From the IMG/VR virus record IMGVR_UViG_3300044691_000429, positions 29,142-93,141 of that record: DNA of 64,000 nt. One strand, 5' to 3'. The notes below the pieces were generated by a model. The model saw nothing but the letters and a program-made list of their open reading frames with translations. It did no database searches and was not told the DNA's origin. The position numbers and the translations under genes were made by a program. The DNA comes from a virus. Shown one piece after another: positions 11,935 through 55,309 of the stretch (the first letter of the stretch is position 1; each line of letters opens with the position of its first letter).

Positions 11935-12402
11935 ATGGCCTTCACCGCATGGGCTGGCGGAGACAAGCTCACCGCACTGCGCCTCAACGGCATGGTCGGC
12001 ACGCCCACCGCATACACCCCGGTCGTCACCAACGGCGGCAGCGCCACGTTCACGACGAAGACCGGCATCTTCGTCATGGTCGGCCCCCTGACCTGGATCA
12101 ACGTCGACATCACTATTGGCACGGCCGGATCCGGCGCGGGCGTGGTGACGATCTCCATGCCCACCACCCCGGACCGCACGCAGCGGCAGGTCGTCACTAT
12201 GCACACCGAGTCGATCGGCGCCAACGGCAACGCGATCAGCCACATCGGCGGCGGTGAGGCGGTGTTCCTCGCTGGCGGGTCCGGCGCCGCCACCGACCGG
12301 CTCCGCACCGACGAGGGCAGCACCACCGCCCGCGAGAACAACATTCTCGGCGCCGACCTGCTCACCGGCGGCCACATCACCATCCAGGGGTTCTACCTGT
12401 GA
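11935..12402 (+). CDS. Small minor tail / fibre-associated protein
   Basis: 155 residues, GTAC-free beta-rich sequence starting MAFTAWAGGDKLTALRLNGMVGTPTAYTP, a pattern seen downstream of actinophage minor tail genes. A GAGG-type purine run (GGAAGGGGG) precedes ATG 11935. Probably part of the tail tip or fibre. No enzymatic motif. Confidence 0.65.
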   Translation: MAFTAWAGGDKLTALRLNGMVGTPTAYTPVVTNGGSATFTTKTGIFVMVGPLTWINVDITIGTAGSGAGVVTISMPTTPDRTQRQVVTMHTESIGANGNAISHIGGGEAVFLAGGSGAATDRLRTDEGSTTARENNILGADLLTGGHITIQGFYL

Positions 12403-24501: not shown

Positions 24502-24777
24502 CTATCGGGTGGGCTGGTTGTAGGCGTCGCGGAACTCTTCGGCGAACGCGGCGGCGAGGACGCCGATCCCGGTCTGCGACAGCGCCGGGTGCCCGGTGCG
24601 GGCGGCGAGCTGCTGCTCGGCGTGGACAGCGGCGGCGGTGGCCACGGTGACGATCACCCGCAGGGTGCGGAGGACCAGCACCAGCACCCCCAGCAGCAGT
24701 TGCGCGACGACCGCGAGGACCGCCAGCACCAGCCGCCGCCATGGGGTCGGGGCGCGGGCCACCAGGACGCGGGGCAT
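24502..24777 (-). CDS. Small Spd-like membrane protein
   Basis: 91 residues from ATG 24777 (a longer frame has no better start). Residues ~15-50 form a strong membrane stretch (RLVLAVLAVVAQLLLGVLVLVLRTLRVIVTVATAAAV), followed by a polar tail. Directly upstream of spdB, so likely one of the accessory spread proteins. Its ATG overlaps the preceding stop by one base. Confidence 0.6.
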   Translation of the reverse strand: MPRVLVARAPTPWRRLVLAVLAVVAQLLLGVLVLVLRTLRVIVTVATAAAVHAEQQLAARTGHPALSQTGIGVLAAAFAEEFRDAYNQPTR

Positions 24778-24944
24778 CAGGCGTACCTCCGGGGGGCTTT
24801 GCCGTCCCGCGCGGACACGGCCCAGGCGCTGGCCCATCGGCCGAGGTCGGGCAGGAGGACGGTCGGCAGCTCCTGCTCGAACTGCTTGCGCACGGGCGCC
24901 GGGCAGGCGGCAATGAGCCCCAGAAGGTCAGACCAGCGCGTCAT
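24777..24944 (-). CDS. Tiny protein, unknown function
   Basis: 55 residues: MTRWSDLLGLIAACPAPVRKQFEQELPTVLLPDLGRWASAWAVSARDG. Helical, coupled to both neighbours by overlap. No family recognised. Confidence 0.55.
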   Translation of the reverse strand: MTRWSDLLGLIAACPAPVRKQFEQELPTVLLPDLGRWASAWAVSARDGKAPRRYA

Positions 24945-25528
24945 GACGCCCCCTTCGCTGCGGTACGGACCAGGCCGAGCGCCTGCTCCCCGGTGGCGCC
25001 CGGCATCTCGTTCCACCGCGGGTACGGCATCGTGATCCCCCGGCTGGCGAGGGCGCCCTGGATCTGCCGCCCCGCCTCGACCGCGGTGTGCTCGGTGCCG
25101 TAGCCGAGGGCGTGCACGGCCCGCTGCGCGCCGAGGATGCAGCGCCCACCGGTCGCAGTGCGGATCCGGCGGCCCGACTTGGCCCACCCCCACCGCTCCA
25201 GGACCAGCGCGGTCAGCTCCAGGTGCTCCGTGGTGGTGATCCGCGCCCGCTGCAGGCCCTCACCCCGACGGGGGCGGAGGACGAGCAGCCGGTCCGGCAG
25301 CACCCGCCACAACCCGCCGGGCAGCTGCGGGCCGGCCGGAGCCGACGGGGCGGGCTCGCTGCCGACCGCCAGCCGCACCAGGTCGGCCGTCGGCAGCGTC
25401 ACGAGCCGGTGCGCGGTCCGCGTCGGATCCGTCAGCCACGCCACAGCCTCGGCCGCCAGCTCGTCGGCGACGCCGTCGAACAGGTCCAGGTCGGGCAGGC
25501 TCGGGATTGCGGTCGTCATGTCAGACAC
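24941..25528 (-). CDS. DUF6197-like protein
   Basis: 195 residues. The second half contains LERWGWAKSGRRIRTATGGRCILGAQRAVHALGYG, resembling the GRxCLxGA signature of DUF6197 proteins common in actinobacterial phages and mobile elements. N-terminal ~75 residues are variable (LPTADLVRLAVGSEPAPS). Function unknown. Overlaps its neighbours by 4 and 8 nt. Confidence 0.6.
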   Translation of the reverse strand: MSDMTTAIPSLPDLDLFDGVADELAAEAVAWLTDPTRTAHRLVTLPTADLVRLAVGSEPAPSAPAGPQLPGGLWRVLPDRLLVLRPRRGEGLQRARITTTEHLELTALVLERWGWAKSGRRIRTATGGRCILGAQRAVHALGYGTEHTAVEAGRQIQGALASRGITMPYPRWNEMPGATGEQALGLVRTAAKGAS

Positions 25529-42869: not shown

Positions 42870-43139
42870 TCAGGGTCGGGGCGGCTGGGTTGCGGCGCGA
42901 ATGTTGATCTGCGCGACGAGGTCCTCAAGCCCGACCGGGTCAGCCGGCGGCAGTGGGGGCTGCGGGCCGGCCTGCACTCCCCAGCTGCACGTCCAGGTGT
43001 GGCCGCAGCCGGGGCAGCGGTAGGCGGCTATGAGTCCGCCGTCCCCGTCGGGCAGCGCCATGGCGGGTCGGGCAACGATGCGAGTGCGCTCGGAGAGGCA
43101 GCTCTCGCAGGTGTCGCTGTACGGCGGGTAGGTGATCAC
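42870..43139 (-). CDS. Zinc-ribbon protein coupled to the helicase gene
   Basis: 89 residues from GTG 43139 (GTGA overlap with the helicase stop). YSDTCESCLSERTRIVAR and YRCPGCGHTWTCSWG form a classical two-knuckle zinc ribbon. Could assist DNA or protein binding in replication, judged from location. Confidence 0.6.
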   Translation of the reverse strand: MITYPPYSDTCESCLSERTRIVARPAMALPDGDGGLIAAYRCPGCGHTWTCSWGVQAGPQPPLPPADPVGLEDLVAQINIRAATQPPRP

Positions 43140-44449
43140 CAGATCGCTCCTGTCGGTGAGTGGCCTGTGATGTCGTCGAAGTCGATGGGCCGGTACGAGG
43201 TCCAGGGCCAGTCCTCGCCCTGGCGGATGAAGCCGGGCCACGCGCGTTCGTCGCGCATGCCGCGCCAGGGCAGGAAGCGCCGGCCGCGGGCGCCGTCGGC
43301 GTTGGACGCGGACTTCTCGTCCTCGACGGGGCGCAGGCCGAACCCGAACTCCGGCCAGCGCATCCACAGCGAGGAGCCGAGGGGGCGCAGGTTGCGGTGC
43401 GCGGACTGCCCGTTGTGGTGGGGCGCGTGGGCTTCCATGAGGACGGCGCAGTCGGTGGTGGCGCGGGCTTCGTCGATGACCGCCGAGACCTTGCGGGCCA
43501 GCTCTTCGGAGTTGGGGTCTCCGGCGTGGAGCCGGTAGATCGGTCCGACGATCAGCAGTTCGGGCTTGAGCTTCTCGACACGCCGCATGAACCAGGCGCG
43601 GTCTGCCGGCCGGGTGAGGTCGAGCCCTTCCGGGCGGCACTCGATGTGGAACATGCCGCGCTCCAGCGGCCGGTGCCCCTTGTTGGCAGCGGCGGCGAGC
43701 AGCGGACGGAACTTGCGGCGGGAGACGGGCGCGCCGTTCTCGCAGTCGAGGACGAGGACGCGGTGGGGGTCGATGTACTCCCACGGCTTGAAGGGGTGCA
43801 GGCCGGACGCGATGGTGACCGCGATCTGCCGGAGCAGCGTTGACTTGCCGCCGCCCTCCGTCGCGGTGAGGATCAGCCGGTCGCCGTACTCCAGGAGGTC
43901 TGGGACCAGCCAGTTGTACGCGTCCTCAACGTTGACGAAGTCGAGGAGATCCATCGTCGGCAGGTCGGCGTTGGCCTGGCCGCGGTCGCGAATGTCGCGC
44001 GCGCGGGCGACGGCGTGCTCAACGAGGTCGAAGGTGGCGCCGGACGGATCGAGGGCGGTGCGGGCGGTTTCCTCGCCGTGCTCGGCGAGAGCCCGGCGCA
44101 GCGCGCGGTCGACGATGATCGCCGCGTATTCGTGGGCGAAGATCGTGTCGGCCTGGCCGGAGATGGTCCAGATGTACTGCTGGCCGCCGACGAGGTCGAG
44201 TTGCCCCTCGTCGGCGAGGTGCTTGATCAGGGTGATCGTGTCGACAGCCGCACCGGCGGCGAACATGGCGGCGAGCGCGGTGTAGATCGGGCCGTGGGTG
44301 CTGCCCCAGAAGTCGTGGGGTCCGACGACTTCGAGGGTCTCGGCGAGGACGCGGCGGCTGTTCATGCAGGCACCGAGGAGCGAGCGCTCGGCGGGCAGGT
44401 CGTGCGGGGGGAGCCGGTCCGGGGGGCGCTCGTCGTCATCGAAGGTCAT
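43136..44449 (-). CDS. DnaB_N plus RepA-like AAA helicase
   Basis: 437 residues. Residues ~12-110 match the DnaB N-terminal domain (LPPHDLPAERSLLGACMNSRRVLAETLEVVGPHDFW). After a linker comes a RecA/RepA-type ATPase with Walker A TATEGGGKST (195-204), VLVLDCEN (231-238) and PELLIVGPIYRL. The C-terminal portion has AHAPHHNGQ. It probably unwinds phage replication forks as the replicative helicase. Neighbouring genes supply a loader-like protein and initiator-like proteins. Confidence 0.8.
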   Translation of the reverse strand: MTFDDDERPPDRLPPHDLPAERSLLGACMNSRRVLAETLEVVGPHDFWGSTHGPIYTALAAMFAAGAAVDTITLIKHLADEGQLDLVGGQQYIWTISGQADTIFAHEYAAIIVDRALRRALAEHGEETARTALDPSGATFDLVEHAVARARDIRDRGQANADLPTMDLLDFVNVEDAYNWLVPDLLEYGDRLILTATEGGGKSTLLRQIAVTIASGLHPFKPWEYIDPHRVLVLDCENGAPVSRRKFRPLLAAAANKGHRPLERGMFHIECRPEGLDLTRPADRAWFMRRVEKLKPELLIVGPIYRLHAGDPNSEELARKVSAVIDEARATTDCAVLMEAHAPHHNGQSAHRNLRPLGSSLWMRWPEFGFGLRPVEDEKSASNADGARGRRFLPWRGMRDERAWPGFIRQGEDWPWTSYRPIDFDDITGHSPTGAIW

Positions 44450-44691: not shown

Positions 44692-45770
44692 GCGGACTCC
44701 TGCGGTTGGATCGGGGCGCCTTCAAGTGCGGCGCGCTCTTCTTCGGCGCGGTACTTCTCGGCGAGCGCAAGGCCGGCGGCGACACGGGCGTCCGTGGTGG
44801 ACGGGCGGATCGGCGTGACGTTGCTGGCGGCGCGGATCTCGGCGAAGGCGAACTGGAGCGTGCCGGGGGTGACGGGCTTGGACAGCCCGCCGATCCGGAC
44901 GAGGGCCGCCCAGAGTTCGTCGGGGTCGGTTCCGTTGCCGAGCGCCTCGTCCACGACCTGGCGGACTTTGCGACTGCCGTAGGAGTTGCCGCGGGCAAAG
45001 CGCTTCATGAAGGCCCCGGTCATCCGGTCCGGGATTCCCCCGCCCGTCTGCACGACGGTGGGTCGGTTCGACTCGGGCGCAGCCGATGGGGGTTTAACCC
45101 CTTGCTCCCTTGCTCCCTTGCTCCCTTGCTCAGGGGCGAAAGAATCCGGAGCGTTTCCGGAGCCGTTCGCGAGAGATTCCGGAGCCTCTTCATACCCGCC
45201 TTGACCTGCTGGTTCGTCGGACCACGACTCTTCCGGGACACCTTCGCCACTGGGCGCGTACACGTCACGCGGCGAGGGGTCAGAAACGGCCCGCGGAGGC
45301 ACTCCGGAAGGGGTCTGAGAGGTGCCGGGGAGACCTTCCGGGAAGCTCTCGAATCCCTCCCGAGACTTTCGCGAGCGATTCCGGAGGCGCTGCGGGTTCC
45401 TCGCCCGCCACGTCTTGAAGTCCTCCGGCTCGTCCTCCGGGCACGGCGGCACCTTCGAGCGCGTCGGGTGCGACGGCTTCTGGTGCTCACGCCAGTTCGG
45501 GGCGTGCAGGTACCGCCGGCCGTCGACCTCGTACCGGCACACGGGGCCGGAGTCGGCGATCAGCTCCAGCCACGCGTCGACGCGCTCGGGGGTGATGTCG
45601 CGGTCCCGCGGGAAGCAGTCGGAGGCGATGAGCAGTTCGTCGTCCACGCCGCGGCCGTAGTCGTCGAGGTAGCCCCACAGCAGGATGAAGAAGTAGCGGA
45701 CCTCGCGCGGCCACAGCGACACCGTGATGGACGTGCGCATCTCGGGCTTGATCGAACGGATGCGGGCCAT
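44688..45770 (-). CDS. Phage replication initiator/organizer-like protein
   Basis: 360 residues from ATG 45770. N-terminal ~110 residues form a winged-helix initiator domain: MARIRSIKPEMRTSITVSLWPREVRYFFILLWGYLDDYG, then APNWREHQKPSHPTRSKVPPCP, typical of actinophage initiator/replisome proteins. Residues ~115-245 are low complexity and contain an 8-bp DNA tandem repeat. The C-terminal ~110 residues are helical (SYGSRKVRQVVDEALGNG). Likely binds the phage origin, perhaps within its own gene as in O-type initiators. Confidence 0.7.
   Translation of the reverse strand: MARIRSIKPEMRTSITVSLWPREVRYFFILLWGYLDDYGRGVDDELLIASDCFPRDRDITPERVDAWLELIADSGPVCRYEVDGRRYLHAPNWREHQKPSHPTRSKVPPCPEDEPEDFKTWRARNPQRLRNRSRKSREGFESFPEGLPGTSQTPSGVPPRAVSDPSPRDVYAPSGEGVPEESWSDEPAGQGGYEEAPESLANGSGNAPDSFAPEQGSKGAREQGVKPPSAAPESNRPTVVQTGGGIPDRMTGAFMKRFARGNSYGSRKVRQVVDEALGNGTDPDELWAALVRIGGLSKPVTPGTLQFAFAEIRAASNVTPIRPSTTDARVAAGLALAEKYRAEEERAALEGAPIQPQESA
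45099..45130. repeat. Four perfect copies of an 8-bp tandem repeat inside the initiator gene
   Basis: CCCTTGCT x4 on the plus strand, encoding a KGAREQGSKG-type stretch on the minus strand. Because 8 is not a multiple of 3, gain or loss of one unit would shift the frame of the 360-residue protein. Could also be an iteron-like initiator-binding array. Confidence 0.75.
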
Positions 45771-46408
45771 CAGACGCGCGCCCCCTTCCGGGTGTTGCAG
45801 GTGGTGCAGAGCACTTGGAAGTTGTCGAGCGAGTCGGGGCCGCCCTTGGAGCGCGGGTGAACGTGGTCGATCTCCAGTCCGCGGTACAGCGGGCGCCCCG
45901 TCGGGGCGGTCGGCACCGGATCTCCCGGCGACCACCCGCAGCCGACGCACTGCCACCCGTCGCGGCGCAGCACCTCGGCGCGCAAGCCTCGGGGGCCTTG
46001 CACGGGAGGCGCCCCTGCGACGACTTCGGAAAGCTCACTGGACGCCACCGCACGCAGGAGGAAAGACGGGGAGCGGGTGATGGCGTCGTAGGCGCCCGCG
46101 ACTACTCGTGGCTGGTTGCCGACGCCGGCATGCCGGAAGTACCCGCAGACGTACAACTCGTCTTCGGCGTGGTCGGGGACGACGAAGCCGCGGGCTTCGA
46201 GGCTGTCGACTCCGCACCGAAGATCTCCTTCCACCGCGCCGCGTGCAGCGTTCGCCCAGCGAGCGAAGGTCATCGGCAGCAGCCCCGCGTTGGTCAGTTG
46301 GGGCTGGCTGACGAGAAACAGGTACAGGCGCTGTTCCTCCTGGGTGAGCGCGATGAACTCGGCGTCCCTCCAGATGCTGGTGAGGATGCGGCTGTGGCCA
46401 CGAGCCAT
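45770..46408 (-). CDS. Initiator-type winged helix fused to an HNH endonuclease domain
   Basis: 212 residues. The first ~95 residues (MARGHSRILTSIWRDAEFIALTQEEQRLYLFLVSQPQLTNAGLLPM) resemble phage replication initiators. Residues ~140-212 carry an HNH motif: GWQCVGCGWSPGD, then LEIDHVHPRSKGGPDSLDNFQVLCTTCNTRKG, with CxxC pairs for zinc and the His/Asn catalytic cluster. It starts the early sub-operon and abuts the next initiator gene (stop 45770). It may nick DNA for replication or act as a homing-type fusion. Confidence 0.75.
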   Translation of the reverse strand: MARGHSRILTSIWRDAEFIALTQEEQRLYLFLVSQPQLTNAGLLPMTFARWANAARGAVEGDLRCGVDSLEARGFVVPDHAEDELYVCGYFRHAGVGNQPRVVAGAYDAITRSPSFLLRAVASSELSEVVAGAPPVQGPRGLRAEVLRRDGWQCVGCGWSPGDPVPTAPTGRPLYRGLEIDHVHPRSKGGPDSLDNFQVLCTTCNTRKGARV

Positions 46409-51798: not shown

Positions 51799-52788
51799 TT
51801 ACTGCGGGGGCTGCGGCGCAGCGGCCTTGAGGGCAGTGCCGCGTTCGCGGATGAAGTCGCCGAGGTTGGTGGGCTTCCCGGTCTCCGGGTGCATCAGTGG
51901 CGTTGCGAGCGCACTGGCCGCCTCGACGTCGCGGTACAGGGTGAGCAGGCTGTCCGCCGTGGCCTTCGTCGAGCTGGCCGCGTTGATCCACGTCTTCGGG
52001 TCGATCTCGTTGGCGCCGGAGCGGAGCCAGTCCAGGTAGGGCTTGGCGATGTCGCGGGCGCCGTCCGGCTGATTGAGCTGCACACCCCTGAAGGCGGGGC
52101 AGCGGGACTTGATGAACCGAAGTCGGTTCGCCTCGTCCATTTCTGCCGCGACGCCGAACTCGAACTCGATGCCCCGGCGCTGTTCGGCGCGCATGCCCTG
52201 GTTGGTGGGTTTCTTGTCCACGAGGACCCAGTCGACGTAGGACCGCATGGTCACAACGACGTGCCCTGGATAGGACATGAGAGCGTCGATCATTTCGTTC
52301 TGGATCTTGCCGCCGTCCTTCCAGCCCGCGAACTTGTTGCCGCCATAGCGGGCCTGGGCCGCCATTTCGACCTGGTCGAGGGTTCCGTCGGCGCCCTTCC
52401 AGAAGTGGCTGAGCGAGTCGACCATCGCGACCGGGTATCCGGCGTCGGCCGCAGCAGCGAGCGCCTTCTGCAGGTCGCGAGGGTCGTAGCGGTGCATCGG
52501 CAGCGTGTCGAATGCGGCGTCGAGGTCGTTGACGTACAGGGCGGCGGCGCCGCGCTCGGTGTCGATGACCGCGAAGCGCCGCCCTTCGGCCAGCCCGCTG
52601 GCGACGGAGAGGCCGGTCCAGGTCTTGCCGGAGCCGGAGACGCCCTGGATGGACACGCGGGCTTTCGCGCCGTCCTTGGTGGCGGGACGGAACACGAACT
52701 CGTCCTCGGCGAAGTCGTCCTGAACAGACGTCCCACTCGGGCGTTGGGCCATCTGCTGGCCGGCGCGCTGAATCGGGTTGGTGGCCAT
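51799..52788 (-). CDS. Sak4-like RecA-fold ATPase (single-strand annealing/recombinase partner)
   Basis: 329 residues. Walker A GVSGSGKT at 49-56, then VIDTERGAA and a Walker B VAMVDSLSHFW about 60 residues later, then a helical C-terminal half. This is the AAA_24/Sak4 type of phage ATPase, often replacing RecT/Redbeta. Its C-terminal region (ASSTKATADSLLTLYRDVEAA) may bind single-strand DNA or SSB. It neighbours the exonuclease gene, as expected for a phage recombination pair. Confidence 0.7.
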   Translation of the reverse strand: MATNPIQRAGQQMAQRPSGTSVQDDFAEDEFVFRPATKDGAKARVSIQGVSGSGKTWTGLSVASGLAEGRRFAVIDTERGAAALYVNDLDAAFDTLPMHRYDPRDLQKALAAAADAGYPVAMVDSLSHFWKGADGTLDQVEMAAQARYGGNKFAGWKDGGKIQNEMIDALMSYPGHVVVTMRSYVDWVLVDKKPTNQGMRAEQRRGIEFEFGVAAEMDEANRLRFIKSRCPAFRGVQLNQPDGARDIAKPYLDWLRSGANEIDPKTWINAASSTKATADSLLTLYRDVEAASALATPLMHPETGKPTNLGDFIRERGTALKAAAPQPPQ

Positions 52789-52801: not shown

Positions 52802-53671
52802 TTAGTTGAAGAGGCGTTCGATGTACGGGGGCAGCGAGATCAGCTCGGTGGTCTCCGAGTAGCCGGGCCAGTGATCGGCCTCACGGCAGTTCGCGAATAG
52901 CTGCATGGCGGCCTGGTTGAGGTCGTGGCCGATGCGCATGGCGAGCGGGTCGAGACGAGCGACAGTCACCACGTAGGGGGCGGTCTTCTCCTGGAAGATG
53001 AAGGTGAACGGGGTGTCGTCGTTCGCGTAGCCGAGAGCCTTGAGGCCGTCCAGATACCAATCGGCCTGTACGTGGTAGCCGTGTTCGAAGACGGCTTTCG
53101 AGACGGCTTCGAGGTCGGCTGACCTGGCAGTCTTGTAGTCGACTGCCTGGCCGTCGTAGCGGAGCCAGTCGACGCGGGCGCGGCGGGTGATGCCGAGTTC
53201 GCGCTCTTCCCAGAAGAGGGACTGTTCGGCGCCGCCGCTTGCGGGATCGAGGAGCGGCCCGGCTTCCGGGTGTTTACGCAGCGCTTCGGCCATGGCGTTG
53301 ACCGTGTCGAGTTCGTGCTGCTTCAGCGGGACGTTGCCTGCGGCCCGAATCTCGGTGAGTTGCTCTTTGACCTCGTTGGTGTCCCACCTGGCCCGGTCGA
53401 CGAGGACCAGTTCGGGCCCGTCGTTGAGCACCAACTTGTGGGCGGCGGTGCCGATGTCCCAGACCTTCTTGGGTGCTTCGCCGTGGTCCTGGTCGTGCCG
53501 AAACTTGGCCGGGCAGGAGGGGGCGAGGAGCTTGCGGGCGCCGGTCGAGGAGAGTGAGCCGCCGGGCACGATGTCGCGGTGGTAGTCGGCGGCATCCAGG
53601 TCCGGGTACAAGCCCGGCCCCTGCCACAGCGGGTCCACCGCCACCTCGGGCGCCTCGACCACGGCCGTCAC
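52802..53671 (-). CDS. PD-(D/E)XK exonuclease (RecE/lambda-exo-type)
   Basis: 289 residues from GTG 53671. SSTGARKLLAPSCPAKFR is the opening typical of phage exonucleases with this fold; GTAAHKL places a catalytic-support His near 78. ITRRARVDWLRYDGQAVDYKTARS gives the core D168, D178-x-K180, and HGYHVQADWYLDGL supplies the Q/Y motif. It probably processes DNA ends for annealing by the Sak4-like ATPase gene 13 nt downstream. Confidence 0.8.
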   Translation of the reverse strand: MTAVVEAPEVAVDPLWQGPGLYPDLDAADYHRDIVPGGSLSSTGARKLLAPSCPAKFRHDQDHGEAPKKVWDIGTAAHKLVLNDGPELVLVDRARWDTNEVKEQLTEIRAAGNVPLKQHELDTVNAMAEALRKHPEAGPLLDPASGGAEQSLFWEERELGITRRARVDWLRYDGQAVDYKTARSADLEAVSKAVFEHGYHVQADWYLDGLKALGYANDDTPFTFIFQEKTAPYVVTVARLDPLAMRIGHDLNQAAMQLFANCREADHWPGYSETTELISLPPYIERLFN

Positions 53672-54012
53672 GCGGCACCGCCGGGCAGGCAGTCCTCGCA
53701 GCGGCCGGTGTTCAGGTCGAACGGTCCGGCCGTGTCGCCGCAGCTGGGGCAGGCGTGCGGGCCCTCGCCGCCCGCGAGCTTCGTCAGCCACGCGAGGGCG
53801 TCGCGGTCGTACTGCATGCCGATGACCGCCGCGGTGTAGCCCGGGAATCCGAGGGCGAGCCGCGCCATGTTCTGCATGTCGGCGGCGGCGATGGTGGAGA
53901 TCAACTGGGTCGTGAAGTTCCCCGCCTGGTAGCCGCCGCGCCCGTAGTGGAACAGGACGTGGTTGGCGATCTCCGGTGTGATGGCGGGTGCTGCCGTGTC
54001 GGTGCGGGTCAT
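53668..54012 (-). CDS. Small protein with a zinc-ribbon C-terminus
   Basis: 114 residues. PEIANHVLFHYGRGGYQAGNFTTQLISTIAAADMQNMARLALGFPGYTAAVIGMQYD, then PHACPSCGDTAGPFDLNTGRCEDCLPGG, where two CxxC pairs form a zinc ribbon. The N-terminal part is a recurrent actinophage motif near recombination genes. Role unknown. Confidence 0.6.
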   Translation of the reverse strand: MTRTDTAAPAITPEIANHVLFHYGRGGYQAGNFTTQLISTIAAADMQNMARLALGFPGYTAAVIGMQYDRDALAWLTKLAGGEGPHACPSCGDTAGPFDLNTGRCEDCLPGGAA

Positions 54013-54190: not shown

Positions 54191-55240
54191 TCAGGCCGCT
54201 GCGGTGTCGGCGGCCTTCTTGGCGGCGAGCGCCTTGACGTGGGCCTCGTAGTCGTCGTGCCACTGCTGCGGGTTGTGGCCCGCCTTCTCGGCCTCGTCCC
54301 ACGCCCACTCGCCGACCTCGCCGGACTCCAACTGCTCGTCCGTGTCGGCGAGGACGGTCCGCAGCAGGTCCGGGTCGGCCATCTGCAGGGCCTTCAGGAG
54401 GCGGTACGCGGTCCAGCCGTTGAGGACGGCCATGATGTGCGCGTAGAACTCGGCCGGGTCGCTGGCCGACTTGCCGTGCATGTCCGTGGTCGAGCGGAGC
54501 ACCTGCTTCAGCAGGTCTTCGGCGTGCTGGCCGATGGCGTTGTCGCGGTCTTCGAGTTCCTGCGGCTCGTGGGTGTCGAGGTCGTCGTCCATCTCGACCG
54601 GCGTCGCCTTGGCGAAGCTGTCGGCCCAGGTGGCGATGTCGTCGGCGATGTTCGGACCGGTGTTGTTGTCGGTGAAGCGGGCGGGCATCTGGATGCCGAG
54701 GAAGTCGTTGCCGACGACGACGATGGGCTTGCTGGCGCTGGCCTGCCAGGTGCAGACCCGGTTGCCTGCCGCCTCCCAGCGGGCCAGCAGCGACGACGTC
54801 ACCAGGCTGTACGGGGCCTCTCCGACGGGGTTCTCCATGGAGTGACGGAGGACGCCCCGCCACTCGGGATAGGGGCCGTTCATGGCCGGGAGGGTCAGGC
54901 CGGTGGTGTAGTCGCCCTCGGTGAAGGTGACGTCGTACTCGCCGGGGGTGATGTGGACGTTGCGCGCGTTGCCGTCGGCGCTGCGGGCCTTGAGCCAGGC
55001 GGCGAGGGCGTCGACGTTGGGGCCGTGCAGGGTGTGGGCCCACGCCGGGTCGCTGCTGCGGGTCTTCTGGCGGGCGACGGCCATGGTGTAGCGGTCGGTG
55101 GCGATGGCGTGGAGGTGGCGGCCGTCGTAGTCGAGGCGGACGCCCTGGATGGGGCCGTAGCCGGCGTTGCGGCCGACGTGGGGCTCGACCTTCCGGAGCA
55201 GTTCGGCGAGCTGGTAGGCGGTGAGGGTCGTGGTCGTCAC
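54191..55240 (-). CDS. DNA polymerase III beta-sliding-clamp-like protein
   Basis: 349 residues from GTG 55240 (CAGGAGAC upstream). TLTAYQLAELLRKVEPHVGRNAGYGPIQGVRLDYDGRHLHAIATDRYTMAVARQ is strongly clamp-like (GVRLDYDGxxLxAxATDRYxxAxAR). The middle has ENPVGEAPYSLVTSSLLARWEAAGNR and PIVVVGNDFLGIQMPARF in domain-like order; the C-terminal ~100 residues are more helical than in bacterial clamps. It likely acts at replication forks or as a clamp mimic for host polymerase. No phage polymerase gene is visible in the window. Confidence 0.75.
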   Translation of the reverse strand: MTTTTLTAYQLAELLRKVEPHVGRNAGYGPIQGVRLDYDGRHLHAIATDRYTMAVARQKTRSSDPAWAHTLHGPNVDALAAWLKARSADGNARNVHITPGEYDVTFTEGDYTTGLTLPAMNGPYPEWRGVLRHSMENPVGEAPYSLVTSSLLARWEAAGNRVCTWQASASKPIVVVGNDFLGIQMPARFTDNNTGPNIADDIATWADSFAKATPVEMDDDLDTHEPQELEDRDNAIGQHAEDLLKQVLRSTTDMHGKSASDPAEFYAHIMAVLNGWTAYRLLKALQMADPDLLRTVLADTDEQLESGEVGEWAWDEAEKAGHNPQQWHDDYEAHVKALAAKKAADTAAA

Positions 55241-55309
55241 GGTCGTCTCCTGGCATGGTTGGGGTTGGCCGTGCCCGCTAGCTCCGGGCACGGCTTCGTC
55301 GTGAGCCGG

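Follow-up and report, generated by a model that had tools for sequence, protein, structure and literature searches.

A shortened beta-clamp relative encoded beside recombination genes of a Streptomyces-type phage

The gene at positions 54191 to 55240 of the window, i.e. the whole stretch of 64,000 nucleotides that was analysed, encodes a relative of the bacterial beta clamp, though not a whole clamp, since it has no domain I and its domain III is short by about 60 residues. Our favoured reading, to which we give a probability of roughly 0.55, is that the product is a ring-less pocket module by which host enzymes that bind clamps are recruited, or diverted, in phage recombination. According to this reading, the phage clamp would keep the two regions that jointly form the pocket for clamp-binding motifs, namely domain II and the C-terminal half of domain III. 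It would have discarded domain I and the half of domain III that bears the interface, so that no ring would form and its oligomeric state would presumably not be that of a closed clamp. It would be made together with the phage exonuclease and single-strand-annealing protein (SSAP) cassette. The pocket would probably bind the motif peptides of host proteins (polymerase, ligase or repair enzymes), and the captured enzymes would be brought to phage recombination intermediates. An appended tether may replace the grip of the ring on DNA, namely an acidic helical domain here and a basic tail or FtsK-gamma domain in relatives. What the computations themselves establish is the clamp fold, the loss of segments, a partly conserved pocket and the association of genes.

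The virus record to which the window belongs has 93,141 bases, and the carrier of the gene is a Streptomyces-type phage. A predicted tRNA-Asn gene lies amid its phage structural genes (12288 to 12372, minus strand). The sequence-only reading had given coordinates for the clamp gene that are exactly those of the open frame, with the strand missing; we found the gene on the minus strand, with GTG at 55240, a stop codon ending at 54191, and 349 amino acids.

54191 to 55240, minus strand: coding sequence of the putatively ring-less clamp (translation, list of open reading frames, upstream AGGAG, phrog_12598 at 1.6e-22, 31-member alignment A4).
55247 to 55251, minus strand: AGGAG, resembling a ribosome-binding site, 6 bases before the GTG of the clamp gene (read from the sequence).

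Scans of sequence collections gave homologues at 29 viral loci and 9 genome loci, the titles of the latter naming Streptomyces (8) and Kitasatospora (1). Alignment A4 consists of 31 of the 39 clamp sequences, the window protein counted in, and its members have 31-57% identity to the window protein. Excluded were L030 and L031 (look-alikes of L029), L037 (a fragment), L040 to L043 (near copies of aligned sequences) and L047, whose frame diverges at the C-terminus.

The likeness to clamps is weak for the single sequence but solidly above chance across the family and in the AlphaFold model. The window protein alone matches PF02767 (clamp domain II) with an E-value of 0.0017, which is under the Pfam cut-off, and its phmmer matches against the PDB have E-values of 0.66 or worse. 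Across A4, PF02767 was found in 26 of the 31 members (best 1.7e-12), and with the A4 profile PDB clamps were matched over the central domain at 2.6e-9. Of the 31 members, 27 matched phrog_947, a processivity-factor family of PHROG, and all 31 matched, over the core, the profile of the shortened phage clamp group, phrog_12598. Alignment by hhalign to three Streptomyces-type DnaN sequences paired A4 columns 16-137 with DnaN 136-260 (probability 82). Besides the PF02767 search, one member showed a weak match to PF00712; we read this match, together with two structural-alignment rows that place the model on clamp domains I-II, as cross-matching of related domains. The sequence-only reading had called the protein clamp-like and proposed predicting its structure. 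The family profiles uphold that description, and the prediction, presented below, returned a clamp fold.

The databases offer two names for this protein. GenBank already names relatives 'DNA polymerase III sliding clamp', and the kind of protein is therefore already known. RefSeq copies (Gordonia, Mycobacterium, Rhodococcus and Burkholderia AH2 phages) and the PHROGs families phrog_12598 and phrog_3007 carry the name 'RusA-like Holliday junction resolvase', and the match of every A4 member to phrog_12598 would favour a resolvase. However, none of the 31 members matched a RusA family in Pfam at E<=0.01, the only Pfam matches being to clamp families, the fold is that of a clamp, and in Tortellini and Lamberg a RusA gene is annotated separately. 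A resolvase is thus ruled out by the Pfam results and the fold, its probability being practically nil, and the name is wrong for the phrog_12598 members examined, which are clamp-fold proteins. It is the shortened, putatively ring-less architecture and the link to recombination that we found without description: in the open-licence PubMed Central literature we found no paper describing a phage clamp that is ring-less or has half a domain, or an association with annealing proteins.

The AlphaFold2 model of the window protein has a mean pLDDT of 83.6. Residues 1-189 superpose on residues 125-366 of the E. coli clamp over about 175 residues at about 2 Å, with Z between 16 and 19.8. Residues 1-125 form two beta-alpha-beta-beta-beta units, equal to one complete clamp domain, and residues ~145-184 form one further unit (strands 145-148, 161-166, 173-177 and 180-184), with helices from 198 onward. 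The corresponding parts of the gene are as follows.

54851 to 55240, minus strand: residues 1-130, one complete clamp domain, the counterpart of domain II (PF02767 at residues 8-125; hhalign to host DnaN 136-260; model secondary structure).
54674 to 54823, minus strand: residues ~140-189, the second half of domain III with the final pocket strand FLGIQMPAR (model strands; structural alignment stopping at E. coli 366; spacing).
54194 to 54649, minus strand: residues 198-349, an acidic all-helical C-terminal domain (separate model with pLDDT 87.2; net charge -21; without confident fold match).

Domain I is absent: in most of the rows listed, model residue 1 falls on E. coli 125, and nothing precedes it within the coding sequence. 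Because residues 1-189 cover E. coli 125-366, about 60 residues are missing inside domain III. The spacing of conserved residues in the sequences, a measure independent of the model, agrees with an internal loss of this size. The equivalents of P242 and M362 are 59-61 residues apart in 31/31 members of A4, compared to 125 in Streptomyces DnaN and, by residue numbers, 120 in the E. coli clamp; by this spacing a complete domain III is not present in any of the 31. Spacing read from the motif positions is about 62-68 in Jace, Lamberg, HannahD, Horus and REQ2, and the first motif is missing from the Tortellini protein. A protein missing half of one domain might be a decaying clamp remnant without function. 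This we consider very improbable, given that the truncation is the same within two residues in all 31 members in spite of their divergence, that the equivalents of M362 and P363 are invariant, and that the added domain is conserved.

The missing segments can be compared to functional residues of the E. coli clamp. As given in excerpts of the review PMC11139829, its pocket residues fall within 152-177, 242-247 and 320-365, and its dimer-interface residues are I78, R103, F106, I272, L273, E298 and E304. Pocket positions were mapped by hand from the alignments and structure elements. All pocket residues listed in those excerpts map to segments kept in the phage protein, and all seven interface residues named there map to segments that it lacks. 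In A4, the equivalents of both M362 and P363 are retained in 31/31 members, position 174 is Arg in 30/31, as in the host, position 175 is Tyr or Phe in 30/31, and the equivalents of P242 and R365 are retained in 29/31 and 27/31, respectively. Several positions of subsite II have drifted, the equivalents of V344, N320 and M364 differing from the host. As a set, the pocket positions are modestly more conserved than the remaining positions (permutation p 0.042). Judged from the alignment, the clamp-binding-motif pocket thus appears partly conserved.

Among the roles proposed from the sequence alone, replacement of the host clamp at phage forks is disfavoured as far as a canonical ring is meant, since the protein lacks domain I and the half of domain III with the interface, and clamp mimicry is compatible with the architecture. 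A processivity ring might still be closed through a new interface, from several copies or mixed with host DnaN, loaded by the host and serving host DNA polymerase III. The clamp fold is clear from both the structure and the PDB profile, and the model shows three beta-alpha-beta-beta-beta units in each chain; however, the published interface residues lie within the missing segments and both domain III sheets would be incomplete, so that we hold such a ring to be unlikely. Its users would be host enzymes, since neither a phage polymerase nor a loader was matched. Specifically, the earlier observation that no DNA polymerase is visible holds for families A, B and C in the whole 93,141-base record and in 28 related records (no match in 29/29, although the records may be fragments), and the clamp-loader family PF13177 likewise had no match in 29/29. 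Prim-Pol was matched in 2/29 records and had no match in the window's own record.

The C-terminal helical domain is conserved in the family, with a net charge of -6 to -21 across all 31 members. Foldseek returned nothing at E<=0.001 (best 0.23), the best Pfam match was 0.037, and PHROG gave none at E<=0.1. Its best structural alignment has Z 7.6 over about 71 residues. Such weak results do not establish a new fold. Because the domain is acidic, DNA tethering by it is unsupported in the window family. Relatives carry other additions. The shortened clamps of REQ2, Tortellini, Lamberg and Horus have lysine/arginine-rich tails, and gp56 of Gordonia phage HannahD (L009:11950-13002) joins the shortened core to an FtsK_gamma domain (1.8e-17), a fusion which explains its annotation as an FtsK-like translocase. 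The Jace clamp has neither. Lysine/arginine/proline-rich tails, resembling DNA-binding tails, are seen at one end of the shortened clamps at L069:8968-9768, L068:8998-9699, L008:14884-15624 and L067:8914-9630.

These additions bear on whether the protein could act as a decoy. It would then be a soluble pocket that sequesters clamp-binding proteins of the host, and host replication or mismatch repair would be blocked as a result. Retention of the pocket with loss of the ring parts agrees with a decoy, as does the acidity of the window protein, which makes its presence on DNA unlikely. Excerpts of two reports describe inhibited mycobacterial growth upon overexpression of phage proteins, i.e. Waterfoul gp48, 376 aa and named sliding clamp (PMC9339283), and Adephagia gp35 (PMC11373665). 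However, gp48 is full length and gp35 is a poor clamp match (18.4 in the table of the latter paper), hence neither is equivalent, and the DNA-binding additions on other actinophage relatives fit recruitment better than sequestration. We therefore consider a general decoy unlikely. Another decoy, which we think quite improbable, would act against mismatch repair, the soluble pocket, made along with the exonuclease/annealing cassette, keeping NucS off mismatched heteroduplexes that arise from phage strand annealing; if so, diverged phages could recombine. NucS is a clamp-activated mismatch endonuclease that docks on the clamp via the five residues at its C-terminus (EYRLF in M. smegmatis) and acts, as excerpts of PMC11551767 and PMC11109965 state, through the host clamp. 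It was present in 8/8 host genomes searched, and in the open-licence PubMed Central literature we found no paper on a phage protein acting against it.

The favoured reading, recruitment to phage recombination, draws on the genes that follow the clamp gene.

53668 to 54012, minus strand: small conserved neighbour directly after the clamp gene (phrog_15317; homologues in 16/36 loci).
52802 to 53587, minus strand: nuclease of the RecE/exonuclease VIII type, DUF3799 (PF12684 at 4.7e-24; phrog_412 at 3.1e-82); the scanned part, start codon not fixed.
51799 to 52788, minus strand: AAA_24 ATPase, which we take to be of Sak4 type (PF13479 at 1.7e-17; phrog_1366 at 6.8e-63).

The Pfam and PHROG matches confirm the exonuclease and Sak4-type neighbours reported earlier as real. 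The association recurs in the 29 records, a partly redundant set whose members are not independent of each other (the proteins of L029, L030 and L031 look alike). RecT was found in 13/29, AAA_24 in 6/29 and phrog_3657 in 4/29, never two together, so that 23/29 have exactly one of the three, usually 1.2-2.4 kb downstream. RecT is 1.19-1.60 kb downstream of the clamp gene on the same strand in 13/13 cases. By arithmetic from coordinates, the distance downstream is about 1.5 kb for the AAA_24 match of the window and 1.3-2.4 kb for the four phrog_3657 matches; outside the window, 4/5 AAA_24 matches are 1.29-1.60 kb downstream, the exception being about 6.7 kb upstream (G002). Six records have none of the three; four of them (G001, G006, G018 and G019) end less than 1.1 kb past the clamp gene, which is not the case for G026 and G028. 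The DUF3799 exonuclease was found in 10/29 records, and the record of L026 (G017) has two such genes about 63 kb apart (24678-25355 and 87441-88118).

Among named phages, the order in Tortellini is exonuclease, phrog_3657 protein, clamp. In Lamberg RecE begins about 1.4 kb past the clamp and is followed by RecT, in Jace RecE/RecT are about 10 kb from the clamp gene, and in HannahD RecE/RecT are absent from the stretch read. Genes of phrog_3657 (L026:12227-13198, L014:8154-9107 and L068:7982-9001) stand in the place of RecT or Sak4 beside the exonuclease. We think phrog_3657, present in 4/29 records and in Mycobacterium phage Tortellini, is likely an unrecognised single-strand annealing protein.

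The earlier suggestion that the clamp recruits the Sak4/exonuclease pair is borne out as far as the gene association is real and repeated; the search it advised for clamp-binding motifs in the neighbouring proteins gave nothing above chance as a docking link. The pentapeptide was absent from the exonuclease (0/13), Sak4 (0/8), RecT (0/14) and the small neighbour (0/16 loci). A longer pattern was seen in 2/13 exonucleases (QAAMQLF and QALFLY), equal to the shuffle maximum of 2, and in none of the Sak4, RecT or small neighbour proteins. The gene at 45770 to 46408 (minus strand) combines an HNH nuclease domain with the N-terminal portion of a phage replication initiator (phrog_3171). QRLYLF occurs in 6/11 homologues of this initiator (shuffle maximum 2), and because of its fixed place there we read it as part of the initiator N-terminal domain. 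Elsewhere in the window (43136 to 44449, minus strand), an AAA_25 (RepA-like) ATPase domain is linked to a DnaB N-terminal domain.

Besides the modest pocket conservation, the drifted subsite II positions and the lack of docking motifs above chance, other points count against the favoured reading. The genes could lie together because the phages are related temperate ones with a compact early region, and a DNA polymerase is present in Burkholderia phage AH2, which has a small clamp-like protein, gp20, matching phrog_3007. Sliding clamps are defined by their ring, and here a phage group without the ring-forming parts seems to retain much of the docking pocket. If recruitment by a ring-less module is true, the two jobs of the clamp, topological hold and partner docking, would be separable in a widespread phage group, clamp chemistry would be linked to phage strand-annealing recombination, and the protein would offer a small soluble reagent for clamp-binding proteins.

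Among known systems, phage Twort Gp168 is likewise of phage origin and targets the clamp system of the host; it differs in that it binds the DNA channel of the clamp, and the excerpts of PMC11139829 do not report it as clamp-like. With bacterial DnaN the phage protein shares the fold and sequence of domain II and, as mapped by hand, many residues of the clamp-binding-motif pocket; unlike DnaN, it is without domain I, half of domain III and the published interface residues, and it adds a C-terminal helical domain. Gordonia Lamberg gp43, Horus gp57 and Jace gp60, Mycobacterium Tortellini gp57 and Rhodococcus REQ2 Orf51 have the same shortened core, as seen from alignment and spacing; for Jace and REQ2 a match to the phrog_12598 profile was seen as well. 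These named actinophage clamps differ in that basic tails, FtsK-gamma (HannahD) or almost nothing replace the acidic helical domain. T4 gp45, PCNA and the herpesvirus proteins UL42 and UL44 are also clamp-fold proteins, and UL42 and UL44 function without a closed ring. In all of these a chain comprises two complete domains, and the protein serves a polymerase of its own system, whereas the phage protein departs from the PCNA/gp45 layout in having one full and one half domain.
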